64,000 bases of DNA from Taibaiella chishuiensis (GTDB taxonomy: Bacteria > Bacteroidota > Bacteroidia > Chitinophagales > Chitinophagaceae). Within the stretch, counting starts at the first letter, position 1. Each line of letters starts with the position of its first letter. Below the pieces are notes generated by a model. That model was not told the DNA's origin, ran no database searches, and saw only the letters and a program-made list of their open reading frames with translations. The DNA lies in assembly GCF_003014535.1 (NCBI RefSeq), contig NZ_PYGD01000012.1, forward strand, positions 1-64,000. The letters run 5' to 3'. Below are positions 21,446 through 29,122 of the stretch, one piece after another. Position numbers and translations under genes: made by a program.

Positions 21446-21715
21446 ATGAAAAAGATCAAGTTACAATCCAAACTGCACCTGGCTAAATCAACGGTTGCCA
21501 CCTTATCGGCAACGGACCAGCGCCAGGTTCAAGGCGGGGGATCGGGCCTTACGCCTTGCCTCGAAAACACAGATACCGGCTGGCCGATGTCTGAAATGAA
21601 CTGCTACTCCTATTTTTACAAATGCGGTTGGAGAACCTGGATCAACTGTGGCAACGATGTATTCCAACCTGCCGGCATGGTTGCTCAACCCGGGGGCGAT
21701 TCGCCTGCACAATAA
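21446..21715 (+). CDS. Lanthipeptide-like (class I, Bacteroidota type) precursor peptide
   Basis: The 89-residue peptide starts with a Lys/Leu-rich leader (MKKIKLQSKLHLAKSTVATL) that ends in VQGGG at residues 28-32. The core carries four Cys (TPC, MNC, YKC, INC) and several Ser/Thr. This is the pattern of the Bacteroidota class I lanthipeptide precursor family (leader of KKLxLxKxTIAxL type ending in Gly-Gly). No LanB, LanC or exporter is in the window, so modification would need enzymes in trans. It may alternatively be an unmodified double-glycine peptide. It is monocistronic, ending at the terminator at 21819. Confidence 0.7.
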   Translation: MKKIKLQSKLHLAKSTVATLSATDQRQVQGGGSGLTPCLENTDTGWPMSEMNCYSYFYKCGWRTWINCGNDVFQPAGMVAQPGGDSPAQ

Positions 21716-24933: not shown

Positions 24934-27564
24934 ATGAGAATCCAAAGGGCTACCCCTGTCAATGAACTGCTGGCGAAGGTGCTGTTTTTACTGTTGCCTA
25001 CTCTGCTGGTCTGTTATTTCCTGATCTGGAATGCCAACCAGTATTACGCCATATTAAGAAGCCAGGCGGTCCAGCAAACGGTATATGTGGCCGCAGGTAT
25101 GCTTGGTGCAGCCCTGTTCTATTCTTTCCGTTTCCGCTTCCTGCCTTCGTTCCTGCTCCTTGCCGGCATACTATATGCCGTGTACCGGGGCATCGATGCC
25201 TCGGCAGTAGGCGAGTTCGACACTTTTTTCCTGTCGATACAGTTCAAGGTTTTTTCCATCACTTTTATTGCCGGCTGGCTGTCCGGTTGGGGCTTCGTAA
25301 GGCTCCGGTTCTTCTCCGTATTTATTGCGGCGCTGTTCCTTACCTGCTGTATCTGGCTGGTATCGAAACAAAGCCAGGTATTCTTCGCCGAAAACGGGCA
25401 GGATGCGCTGCTCAACTTTGCAGCCGTGTTTGGTCCTATCGTGCTGTACGCGGTTTATATCATTTTTACTGCGGAGCTTATCCGTAACTACAAGGATAAG
25501 AGCCAGAAGTTCTGGTGGTTCCTCACCCGCAGGCTGTTGCTCTTTGCAGGTCTGGCCGTAGTCCTGCTGGGCGGCGTTATTTATTTTATGCGCAGCCAGA
25601 TCAAAGAGACGATTGCCGAGTTTGGCGGTGGTGGCCAGGAAGGCAAGATCAGCATGCTGAAGAAGAACAAGGATAATACCTTCGACCTGCAGCAGTATAC
25701 CCGCTTGCGGGGCAACCTGGGGCGCAGCAACGAATTGCTGTTTGCCGCGCATATCGAAAACTTCTTTCCCGATTCGGATGTGCCCAACCCCCTGTACCTT
25801 ACGGCATTTTATTATTCCAAATTCGATACCCTTACCGAAACTTTTGAACGCGATTCCCTGATCCCGGCCAACGACCTGTTTGAACCCGATCCCGGTAAGG
25901 TACCCCTGTTCTCTCCCCGTTACGACTCCTCGGTGCTGGCTTATGCTTTAAAGGAGCGGCTGCGCAAAACGGTAGAGATCGAAGTGTATAAAAAACAACT
26001 GTCGCCCGCAACCTATATCGCGCCCAGTACCGCATTCTTCGTACAGCCGATCACGATCGAGCGTGACTTCCAGCAGGAGTTCAAATCGGCTTACCGGGCT
26101 AAAAGTTATGTATCCGAACTGAACAGCGCCTACTTCGTGTATAATGCCGACGATCCGCAGATCCGCCTGTTCCAGGAACAGCGCTTCGAGGTTCTGCGTA
26201 AAGTAACCGGTTACGATGGCGTATCGCCGCAGCTGATGAAGTATTATACGTTCATGCCTGCCGATGCCAAGTTCAATCGCATACGCAGTCTTGCGGCAGA
26301 GGTTACGAAAGGCAAGACCACACCGGTGGATAAGATTATTGCTATCCGGGATTACTTCCTGTCTAAAGATGAAAACGGCGAACCTTTGTTCTCCTATACC
26401 GATAACCCCGGTGTGCCGGATATACCCGATGCTTCCAAGCTGCAATACTTCCTGTTCGAAAACCGTAAAGGCTATTGTGCTTACTATGCCGGCGCTACCT
26501 TATTCATGTTGCGTTCGCTGGGTATACCTTCACGTATTACGGTAGGGTTTATGACCGTGGAGCGTAGTAATAAAAATAAAGGCTGGTACTGGTATTATGC
26601 CGACCAGGCGCATGCCTGGGTACAGGTTTACTTCCCGGGTTACGGCTGGCTCGACTTCGATACCACAGTGGGCAACGACGATGCGCGCGAAAGTCCCAAA
26701 CCGGATGGTACACCGCCTATGCAGCCGCCCAAGGCCTTCCTGGCAGGCGATGGCCTGGTATCCAGTGTAGATACGGTTAAAAAAATAGTAGGCTTGCGTA
26801 TGTCGCGCATGGTGTACCACGACAAGGAATACAAACTGCCCGAAACTAAGGAGCTGAAACTGGATGTGAGCGTTGCCGCTATCCGTAAAGACAGTATGGA
26901 TATACCGCTAAGCCAGCTGCACGTGGGCGATAGCGCTACCGCAGTGTCTTATGCCGAGGTATTTAAAAACCTGAAACCCTCCGCCGGGGAACAGGCAATG
27001 AGCCTGGTGGACCGCTTCCCCGATCCCGCGCCCATAGACGAGGTGTATGTAAAAGCGGTGTATAAAGATAAAAAAGAACAGGATGCCCTGCAGCAGGAAG
27101 AAAACAAGGGCACCAACTGGAAAGCCGTTTTATGGACCGCTGCGATCAGTATCGCGGTAATCCTGTTGTTGCTGCTGTTATTGCCACGCCTGATCTATAC
27201 CTATTACCGGCTGCGGTATGCGGCAGCTAAGGCTACCGGCGCCAGGGCTTACTGGGCCTATCGTACGGCGGGCTTCTACCTGCACCAGCTGGGTTATGTA
27301 AAGGGCAGCCAGACGGCTTTGCAACATGCGCAGCAGGTAGACCAGGCGCTGCACACCCGTTTTACCGCCTTTATGATCCCTTATCTTAAACTGAAGTATG
27401 CCGGTCAGGCACTCGATGCTTCAGAAGAGCAGGCTTTGTTACAAGCGCTGTCGCCGTTGTTGCGGCAGGTAAGGCAACAGGTGCCTTTCGGTAAGCGCTT
27501 CGCCCGCTTCTTCCAGGTATTCCGGGCTATCGCCTTCTTCGGCGTAGGCGAGGACGAGGCCTGA
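24934..27564 (+). CDS. Transglutaminase-like membrane protein (TgpA type)
   Basis: The 876-residue protein has about six membrane helices in the first 230 residues, a long periplasmic region, and a transglutaminase-like core at about 440-590. Catalytic Cys515 is in NRKGYCAYYAGATLFMLRSL, His560 in QAHAWVQVYF and the Asp in WLDFDTT (about 576). Another membrane helix lies at about 731-751, followed by a cytoplasmic tail. This is the TgpA/DUF3488 layout; such enzymes probably cleave or cross-link peptide bonds outside the inner membrane. Its usual MoxR-ATPase and DUF58 companions are not adjacent. Confidence 0.88.
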   Translation: MRIQRATPVNELLAKVLFLLLPTLLVCYFLIWNANQYYAILRSQAVQQTVYVAAGMLGAALFYSFRFRFLPSFLLLAGILYAVYRGIDASAVGEFDTFFLSIQFKVFSITFIAGWLSGWGFVRLRFFSVFIAALFLTCCIWLVSKQSQVFFAENGQDALLNFAAVFGPIVLYAVYIIFTAELIRNYKDKSQKFWWFLTRRLLLFAGLAVVLLGGVIYFMRSQIKETIAEFGGGGQEGKISMLKKNKDNTFDLQQYTRLRGNLGRSNELLFAAHIENFFPDSDVPNPLYLTAFYYSKFDTLTETFERDSLIPANDLFEPDPGKVPLFSPRYDSSVLAYALKERLRKTVEIEVYKKQLSPATYIAPSTAFFVQPITIERDFQQEFKSAYRAKSYVSELNSAYFVYNADDPQIRLFQEQRFEVLRKVTGYDGVSPQLMKYYTFMPADAKFNRIRSLAAEVTKGKTTPVDKIIAIRDYFLSKDENGEPLFSYTDNPGVPDIPDASKLQYFLFENRKGYCAYYAGATLFMLRSLGIPSRITVGFMTVERSNKNKGWYWYYADQAHAWVQVYFPGYGWLDFDTTVGNDDARESPKPDGTPPMQPPKAFLAGDGLVSSVDTVKKIVGLRMSRMVYHDKEYKLPETKELKLDVSVAAIRKDSMDIPLSQLHVGDSATAVSYAEVFKNLKPSAGEQAMSLVDRFPDPAPIDEVYVKAVYKDKKEQDALQQEENKGTNWKAVLWTAAISIAVILLLLLLLPRLIYTYYRLRYAAAKATGARAYWAYRTAGFYLHQLGYVKGSQTALQHAQQVDQALHTRFTAFMIPYLKLKYAGQALDASEEQALLQALSPLLRQVRQQVPFGKRFARFFQVFRAIAFFGVGEDEA

Positions 27565-27584
27565 TCAAAGTATAAATAAAAAGA

Positions 27585-27610
27585 AACGGCAGGGAGCGAT
27601 CCCTGCCGTT
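27585..27610. terminator. Hairpin between convergent genes
   Basis: AACGGCAGGGA (27585-27595) pairs with TCCCTGCCGTT (27600-27610) over a GCGA loop. The downstream T-run is weak on the plus strand, while the minus-strand side reads into TTTCTTTTTATTT, so it probably serves mainly the minus-strand peptide genes. Confidence 0.7.
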
Positions 27611-27644
27611 CTGTTGACTGCTTAATGGTTTGTAGATTTTTTTG

Positions 27645-27878
27645 CTACAGCGTATAAGATTTGCCATCCCGGCCCGGGTGTGTATCCGGGCTGCCGGCGC
27701 AGGTTTCAGCCTGTGTAATTGTCGGTACCGTTGCCGTATCGCGGATATAACCGCAGTAGGCATTGCGTTTGGAATAGTATAGCGGTTCCTACCCACCCTG
27801 CACTCCGGCCCTATGAGGATCATTAAGCCATGCAATGGTTGTCCTGTATAACTTCAGGGACTGCTGCTTTTTCTTCAT
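27645..27878 (-). pseudogene. Second lanthipeptide-like precursor, stopped after Gly-Gly
   Basis: Reading from the ATG at 27876-27878 gives a 29-residue leader with KLYRTTIAWLNDPHRAGVQ ending in Gly-Gly. It aligns closely with KLQLTRKTIAQLNDNAMMDI-QGG of the gene 38 bases upstream. The next codon is TAG (27789-27791). The same frame then stays open for 47 codons and looks like a core: two Cys (NAYCGY, AETCAG) and many Thr/Ser, ending at TAG 27645-27647. The frame is intact on both sides, so a single nonsense change is the simplest reading. A leader-only peptide or read-through cannot be excluded. Confidence 0.75.
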
Positions 27879-27916
27879 GCTTTGATCCTGGGGCCTGGCC
27901 GGGAAGGCCTGCGCTT

Positions 27917-28183
27917 TTAGTGTTGCTGGATGCTACCACCGGGATTGATCACACTGGTGCCGCTGGTATCGGTAGGGCAGCCTGCGTACGACACAGTTGT
28001 GGTAGTTAAGATAGTGCGGGTTGTCGTAACAGGGATTACCCTGCATACAATGGGGTTGGTTTGAACATTGATGCAATTGGGCAATGTAGCACCGCCCTGG
28101 ATGTCCATCATGGCATTGTCGTTCAGTTGCGCAATGGTTTTGCGGGTGAGTTGCAGTTTGGCATTCAGATTTTTCTTTTTCAT
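27917..28183 (-). CDS. Lanthipeptide-like (class I, Bacteroidota type) precursor peptide
   Basis: The 88-residue peptide starts MKKKNLNAKLQLTRKTIAQL and its leader ends IQGG at residues 28-31. This is the Bacteroidota class I lanthipeptide leader pattern. The core is very Thr-rich (about a dozen Thr, with a run TTTRTILTTTTV) and has three Cys (37, 47, 69), suited to thioether rings. The ATG two codons further up (28189) is an alternative start. It is first in a two-gene unit with the broken precursor at 27645-27878. No modification or export genes are in the window. Confidence 0.72.
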   Translation of the reverse strand: MKKKNLNAKLQLTRKTIAQLNDNAMMDIQGGATLPNCINVQTNPIVCRVIPVTTTRTILTTTTVSYAGCPTDTSGTSVINPGGSIQQH

Positions 28184-28286
28184 GATCATTGAATTTATAG
28201 TTAAAAAATAAAGGGAAGGGTTTTTGTAACCGGGATCGGGCAGGTCAGGCCGGGTTTCCGGGTACGGTTATTTTATTTTCATGTTG

Positions 28287-28294
28287 CAAAGCTA
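28287..28294 (-). promoter_or_regulatory. -7 box TAGCTTTG of the precursor operon
   Basis: On the minus strand TAGCTTTG matches TAnnTTTG about 100 bases before the ATG. Just upstream of it a GGCGG/CCGCC inverted repeat (28296-28315) is seen. The rest of the 28190-28450 gap shows no gene. Confidence 0.45.
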
Positions 28295-28438
28295 GGGCGG
28301 TATACAGATGCCGCCAATACGTTTTAATACTGATTTTTGATAATCATAGGGTTGAAAACACATGGAAAAAGGATAGCATTTATCTATAAAAAATTAGAAC
28401 GCAATTGTTTAAATTTAGGGATCGCGTAAACGGATTGT

Positions 28439-28446
28439 TATCTTTG
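28439..28446 (+). promoter_or_regulatory. -7 box TATCTTTG abutting the pcm start
   Basis: TATCTTTG is followed by CAGG and the ATG at 28451, the same arrangement as at 15765-15779. Confidence 0.55.
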
Positions 28447-28450
28447 CAGG

Positions 28451-29122
28451 ATGTTACACAGACAGGAAAAAACAGACAGTTACATGCACAAAGGGCTGCG
28501 CCGCAAGCTCATGGACGAACTACGCGAAAAAGGAATTACCGATGAAAGGGTACTTGATGCCATGATAAAAATTCCGAGACACTTTTTTTTAGATCCCGCT
28601 TTTGAACGGATAGCCTACGAAGACCGGGCTTTCCCGATCGTAGCCGGTCAAACCATTTCCCAGCCTTATACCGTAGCCTACCAGACACAGTTCCTGGAGC
28701 TGCGTAAGTTTGATAAGGTACTGGAGATCGGTACCGGAAGCGCTTACCAGGCCTGTGTTCTGGCCGAAATGGGCGCCATGGTATATACGATCGAGCGGCA
28801 GCGCCAGCTGTTTGAACACAACAACAACTTTTTTTACCTGAAGAATTACCCCAGCCTGAAACGCTTCTATGGCGATGGTTTCGAAGGCTTACCTTCCTTT
28901 GCTCCTTTCGATAAAGTAATAATAACAGCAGCGGCGCCCTTCGTACCGCCCAAGCTGGTAGCGCAAATGAAAACCGGCGCTATCATGATCATACCGGTAG
29001 ATAATGAAGACGGCAGTATGCAGCAGATGCGCCGTATCGTAAAGACAGCCGATGGTTATACCGAGGAAATGCTGGATAACTTCAGCTTTGTACCGATGCT
29101 TGGCGGTAAAGAAAACCGGTAG
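28451..29122 (+). CDS. pcm: Protein-L-isoaspartate O-methyltransferase
   Basis: The 223-residue SAM-dependent enzyme has the PIMT motifs: GITDERVLDAMIKIPRH, the substrate-site loop AGQTISQPYTVAYQ, SAM motif VLEIGTGSAYQACVLAEM and FDKVIITAAAPFVPPKLV. It methylates isoaspartyl residues to start their repair. Homologues usually begin near Met12 (MHKGLRRKL at 28484), but the promoter position allows a leaderless start at 28451. It diverges from the precursor-peptide operon; PIMT relatives modify some ribosomal peptides elsewhere, but this copy looks like the housekeeping type. Confidence 0.93.
   Translation: MLHRQEKTDSYMHKGLRRKLMDELREKGITDERVLDAMIKIPRHFFLDPAFERIAYEDRAFPIVAGQTISQPYTVAYQTQFLELRKFDKVLEIGTGSAYQACVLAEMGAMVYTIERQRQLFEHNNNFFYLKNYPSLKRFYGDGFEGLPSFAPFDKVIITAAAPFVPPKLVAQMKTGAIMIIPVDNEDGSMQQMRRIVKTADGYTEEMLDNFSFVPMLGGKENR

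Follow-up and report, generated by a model that had tools for sequence, protein, structure and literature searches.

The minus strand of the 64-kb stretch of Taibaiella chishuiensis contig NZ_PYGD01000012.1 analysed here (hereafter the window) carries a short reading frame, ORF2 (27878-27645), in which an apparent lanthipeptide leader is closed by a stop codon at the point where a core peptide would be expected to begin. The question that this locus raises is whether ORF2 is a precursor gene that has died, a leader joined to unrelated DNA, a working gene for a leader alone, or an intact precursor behind a misread or translated stop codon. Translation confirmed the layout proposed in the initial annotation: the frame opens with an ATG at 27878, encodes a 29-residue leader ending in Gly-Gly, meets a TAG at once and then continues for 47 open codons to a second TAG (Table 1). 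ORF2 does not encode a core with Cys and Ser/Thr in one uninterrupted frame with its leader, since the first TAG directly follows Gly-Gly. The best-supported reading, which we consider probable, is that ORF2 is the decayed relic of a class I lanthipeptide precursor gene that was once complete and now makes no product; a rearrangement at the leader/core junction is the main rival, and a free leader peptide, a sequence error and read-through of the TAG are less likely.

Table 1. Features of the ORF1-ORF2 locus, with positions in the window.
Feature	Position	Strand	Description and basis
Promoter-like TTG-N20-TAGCTTTG upstream of ORF1	28287-28317	-	motif occurs three times on the minus strand of the 64 kb
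ORF1, intact class I lanthipeptide precursor	27917-28189	-	90 aa; NF038153 36.1 bits (cut-off 22), E 5.2e-9
ORF1-ORF2 spacer	27879-27916	-	38 nt, GC-rich; no shorter gap among the 22 same-strand neighbour pairs <3 kb of this genome
ORF2 leader MKKKQQSLKLYRTTIAWLNDPHRAGVQGG	27792-27878	-	29 codons, ATG to Gly-Gly, LxLxRx5L motif; translation and NF038153
TAG directly after Gly-Gly	27789-27791	-	translation; TAG also inside the match of ORF1 to the ORF2 region
ORF2 open tail EPLYYSKRNAYCGYIRDTATVPTITQAETCAGSPDTHPGRDGKSYTL	27648-27788	-	47 codons, 2 Cys; at most a decayed core
Second in-frame TAG, closing the ORF2 tail	27645-27647	-	translation
Intrinsic-terminator-like site 3' of ORF2	27584-27611	-	12-pair stem, 4-nt loop, T-rich tail

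The leader of ORF2 is a genuine relative of class I lanthipeptide leaders. In a protein search it matched the leader family NF038153 (lant_leader_L1a, the Bacteroidota Gly-Gly type) with 20.6 bits and an E-value of 3.7e-4, narrowly missing the curated cut-off of 22 bits, and in a six-frame scan of the whole genome with 17.9 bits (E 0.031). A leader HMM trained on the other leaders of the T. chishuiensis genome, with ORF2 excluded, gave 23.6 bits (E 5.3e-4). These values, together with the clear precursor lying 38 nt away on the same strand, place the leader above chance. ORF2 shares with the NF038153 precursors the leader sequence, the LxLx(K/R)x5L motif and the Gly-Gly end, and differs from them in falling just below the cut-off and in having no core in the same open frame; an LxLxKx5L motif, often accompanied by Gly-Gly, is described for the class I LanAs of Bacteroidetes (PMC7268733). 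The strict motif is present in ORF2 and in 237 of the 265 other complete precursor frames that we read in three Taibaiella genomes, and the terminal Gly-Gly in ORF2 and 256 of them. Decay of the ORF2 leader is slight, since both the recognition motif and Gly-Gly are kept and its score is not among the lowest, ranking 28th from the bottom among 273 matches to the leader HMM.

Among the 78 leaders of this genome, the nearest to that of ORF2 is the leader of its neighbour ORF1, which is second-nearest among the 265 of the three genomes (score 58, against 59 for a T. koreensis leader). The two are 51.6% identical over 31 columns. Of the shared string noted initially, K-L-x-L-x-R-x-T-I-A-x-L-N-D, the two have L-x-L-x-R-x-T-I-A-x-L-N-D in register; the leading K is not common to them. 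The ORF1 leader reaches 28091 and is followed by a core of 57 aa with three Cys; translation may start at 28189 or 28183. A tandem duplication of ORF1 as the source of ORF2 is not demonstrated, the similarity of DNA and cores lying within that of shuffled sequences (107/300 and 371/1000, respectively).

Both genes belong to a very large family. A six-frame scan of the 5.84-Mb T. chishuiensis genome with NF038153 returned 80 matches at E <=10, of which 63 exceed the cut-off, spread over many contigs. When 39 genomes were searched at E 0.05, T. chishuiensis had 73 matches, T. helva 65 and T. koreensis 105; none were found in T. lutea or in 33 of the 35 other relatives, and the remaining two (G008 and G045) had one match each. 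From the loci around the NF038153 matches in the three species we read 266 distinct complete precursor frames, namely 77 in T. chishuiensis (ORF2 included), 67 in T. helva and 122 in T. koreensis; seven of the 273 leader-HMM matches were left out, as their frames had no stop within the locus. Early stops, inside or right after the leader, occur in two of the 266, ORF2 and one T. koreensis copy, and such counts are lower bounds because copies interrupted in the first part of the leader would escape detection. The T. koreensis copy (locus L252, 428-628, contig C16 of G002) starts with the ATG at 428 and meets a TAA at codon 27, before Gly-Gly; past the TAA an in-frame AVAGG leads into a Cys-bearing open stretch, and two intact copies follow it in the tandem array. 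The enzymes are few by comparison. Six LanC matches were found in the T. chishuiensis genome and four LanB matches, which represent three genes because two of them apparently share a single 940-aa frame, and none of these LanB or LanC matches is on the contig that carries ORF2.

The region in front of ORF2 sets it apart from its kin. The 25 nt upstream of its ATG are 28% AT, the lowest of 264 such regions, for which the next value is 52% and the median 72%. The spacer to ORF1 is likewise the shortest of its kind in this genome, followed by one of 71 nt among the 22 pairs. A promoter-like site precedes ORF1, formed by TTG-N20-TAGCTTTG, which we take to be the Bacteroidota-type promoter consensus, and no such motif was found between the starts of ORF1 and ORF2; downstream of ORF2 lies a terminator-like hairpin with a folding energy of -23.9 kcal/mol (z -4.44). 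This arrangement suggests that ORF1 and ORF2 are on one transcript. As a trait of the precursor family the promoter motif is weak, being present within 250-300 bases upstream of 13 of 263 precursors, against a mean of 2.8 in shuffled sequences. An inverted repeat, GGCGG...CCGCC, lies at 28296-28315, between the two promoter-like elements of ORF1, and is possibly an operator. A search with Rfam found nothing.

The main rival to a relic concerns the stretch behind the TAG. If a rearrangement had fused the leader, at Gly-Gly, with DNA of non-core origin whose first codon is a stop by chance, the tail would owe nothing to a precursor; we regard this as unlikely, though well ahead of the remaining alternatives. 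The initial annotation took the intact frame on both sides of the TAG as a sign of a recent event. The openness of the 141-base tail is however matched by 16.6% of 5000 base shuffles, and another frame on that strand is open across it as well, so that the open tail alone is weak evidence; this chance-level openness fits a rearrangement. The content of the tail fits one too. It has two Cys, against a median of six per core and two or fewer in 8 of 260 cores, and only 5 of the 260 have core-likeness scores this low, on a scale that was derived from these same 260 cores and so slightly favours them over the ORF2 tail. Nor does any one core resemble the tail beyond chance, its best similarity being reached by 59 of 300 shuffles. 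In a control, each of 40 sampled true cores was set against 20 shuffles of itself; 32 outscored every one and 8 did not, so the missing similarity is not decisive either way. Against a rearrangement, the tail looks more like a core in frame 0 than in its two other frames, with a score that 48 of 820 open shuffles reach, and the tail length of 47 codons is near the median core length of this genome, 42. Nor did a search of 27400-28500 show any repeat of at least 12 bases. When the tail was scored against all 78 cores of this genome, 20 of 300 shuffles attained its total. Together with the little-decayed leader, the frame-0 and summed scores are compatible with a former core and with a still functional leader.

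Comparison with relatives bears on the age of the site. The interval 27565-28450, between a transglutaminase-like and a PIMT-like gene, holds the two precursors in T. chishuiensis; its counterpart in T. helva, T. koreensis and T. lutea lacks any precursor and is occupied by two other genes. One of these genes encodes a putative serine-hydrolase-like protein, so named by inspection, and the other a protein of 205-240 aa; searched with both proteins from T. koreensis and T. lutea, the window showed nothing clear (best E 0.044) and the fetched loci of the T. chishuiensis genome nothing at E 1e-3. Conversely, ORF1 had no match at E 1e-8 in the three genus-mates, and the 601-base locus likewise found nothing there, its matches being confined to stretches of 28-38 bases in three other relatives. 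No relative of ORF1 was found encoded in 92 candidate genome stretches, a set that possibly leaves out its own genome. The leader HMM, applied to 35 loci around transglutaminase-like relatives, several of them too short to include the site, gave one clear match, in T. helva, which is about 3 kb from the transglutaminase-like gene on its other side and thus not at the site of ORF2. Because three genus-mates have two other genes and no precursor here, we infer that both precursors probably arrived at this site, or replaced the genes at it, within the T. chishuiensis lineage. That the site seems new in this lineage also favours a rearrangement. For the same reason, a former sense codon at the position of the TAG is not traceable through orthologs in these genomes. 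The PIMT-like gene itself (28451-29122) was rejected as a candidate RiPP-modifying methyltransferase; of 39 genomes, 38 (its own included) contain a match to it and 34 lack any to NF038153, so that it looks like a housekeeping gene (Pcm).

Taken together, these results make it probable that ORF2 is a relic. Most likely the large precursor family of this genome gained it as one more copy, which ended up behind ORF1 in one transcription unit; its function would then have been lost, with the frame closing after the leader, the start region becoming unlike that of its kin and the former core drifting. Its product, if translated at all, would be a bare 29-residue leader. A former full core, a present lack of function and this order of events are what we infer around features that can be read directly, namely the leader homology, the TAG, the atypical start region, the low core-likeness and one promoter-like and one terminator-like site. 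Birth and death of copies is to be expected among so many paralogues, with 63 leaders over the cut-off in this genome and 67 to 122 complete frames in each of the three species. The other nonsense copy, that of T. koreensis, and the unusually short gap to ORF1 point the same way. Besides the TAG, the marks of decay are the upstream AT content and the low core-likeness; the leader itself shows little. Counting against a relic are the well-kept leader, the want of any single core that resembles the tail, and the fact that no intact ancestral ortholog was found in the three genus-mates or the other relatives. The exact position of the TAG at the leader/core junction looks like a coincidence of decay, given that the only other early stop, that of T. 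koreensis, falls inside the leader. The initial proposal of a second precursor in the same operon, silenced by one change, therefore stands in part: the gene is of precursor type, is on the same strand and probably on the same transcript as ORF1, and would yield no leader-core product unless the stop is passed. The parts of it that described an otherwise intact gene and a recent single change are not supported, given the start region, the Cys-poor tail of low core-likeness, its chance-level similarity to known cores and its chance-level openness.

The same junction could instead be functional. A leader-only gene would release a free leader that binds the leader-recognition site of LanB or LanC and acts in trans as a competitor or activator, tuning which of the many precursors the few enzymes process. 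The intact LxLxRx5L motif and Gly-Gly, a stop exactly at the junction and a transcript seemingly shared with an intact precursor all agree with such a role, which had been raised at the outset, as competition for the modifying enzyme, among the alternatives. It has no comparative support, however: none of the 265 other complete frames stops at the junction, so that leader-only genes were not met again, and conservation in orthologs was not found. The highly atypical start region also speaks against a working gene, and we consider this reading improbable. A sequencing or assembly error at the TAG, which would make ORF2 an intact precursor, is in keeping with the frame being open on both sides, yet the atypical start, the few Cys and the low core-likeness are independent of that base and already set ORF2 apart; we hold it to be slightly more doubtful still. 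Suppression or recoding of the TAG, giving a full precursor, is very improbable: the frame does run on for 47 codons, but TAG closes 9 of this genome's 76 other complete frames and ends the ORF2 frame itself, and no tRNA gene was found in the 64-kb window.

As a relic, ORF2 on its own would be an ordinary casualty of an unusually large family, and it may serve as a marker of turnover, in which Taibaiella seems to acquire precursor copies at new sites, some of which then die. The larger finding is the family itself, a dispersed repertoire of class I precursors with 67-122 frames per genome in three Taibaiella species. It offers a natural setting in which to ask how a handful of class I enzymes could handle so large a number of substrates, and a counterpart to the prochlorosins of marine cyanobacteria, with up to 83 putative precursors in one strain, likewise numerous, dispersed and with a conserved leader (PMC10783134). 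The Taibaiella sets differ from these in leader family, in their class I enzymes, in phylum and in reaching 122 complete frames. The pinensins, described as class I lanthipeptides of Bacteroidetes (PMC7268733), share with the ORF2 locus a likeness at the level of phylum and lanthipeptide class; a difference is that the locus has no LanB or LanC nearby. In the open literature, outside which most subscription papers lie, no paper was found that treats Taibaiella and lanthipeptides together, and among the titles listed there nothing matched silenced, truncated or leader-only precursors.

Several other precursors were seen in passing. The window holds a further NF038153 precursor of 89 aa on the plus strand at 21446-21715, and a similar one is located near the T. 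helva transglutaminase-like gene (locus L120, about 1918-2172), the two having a core stretch alike, SYxYxCGxxTWINC. Two precursor pairs common to T. helva and T. koreensis, L275/L222 and L276/L223, have very similar short cores (VNSLEYATRCCCDQQA and KPxSYGCTL); outside these pairs the cores are varied.
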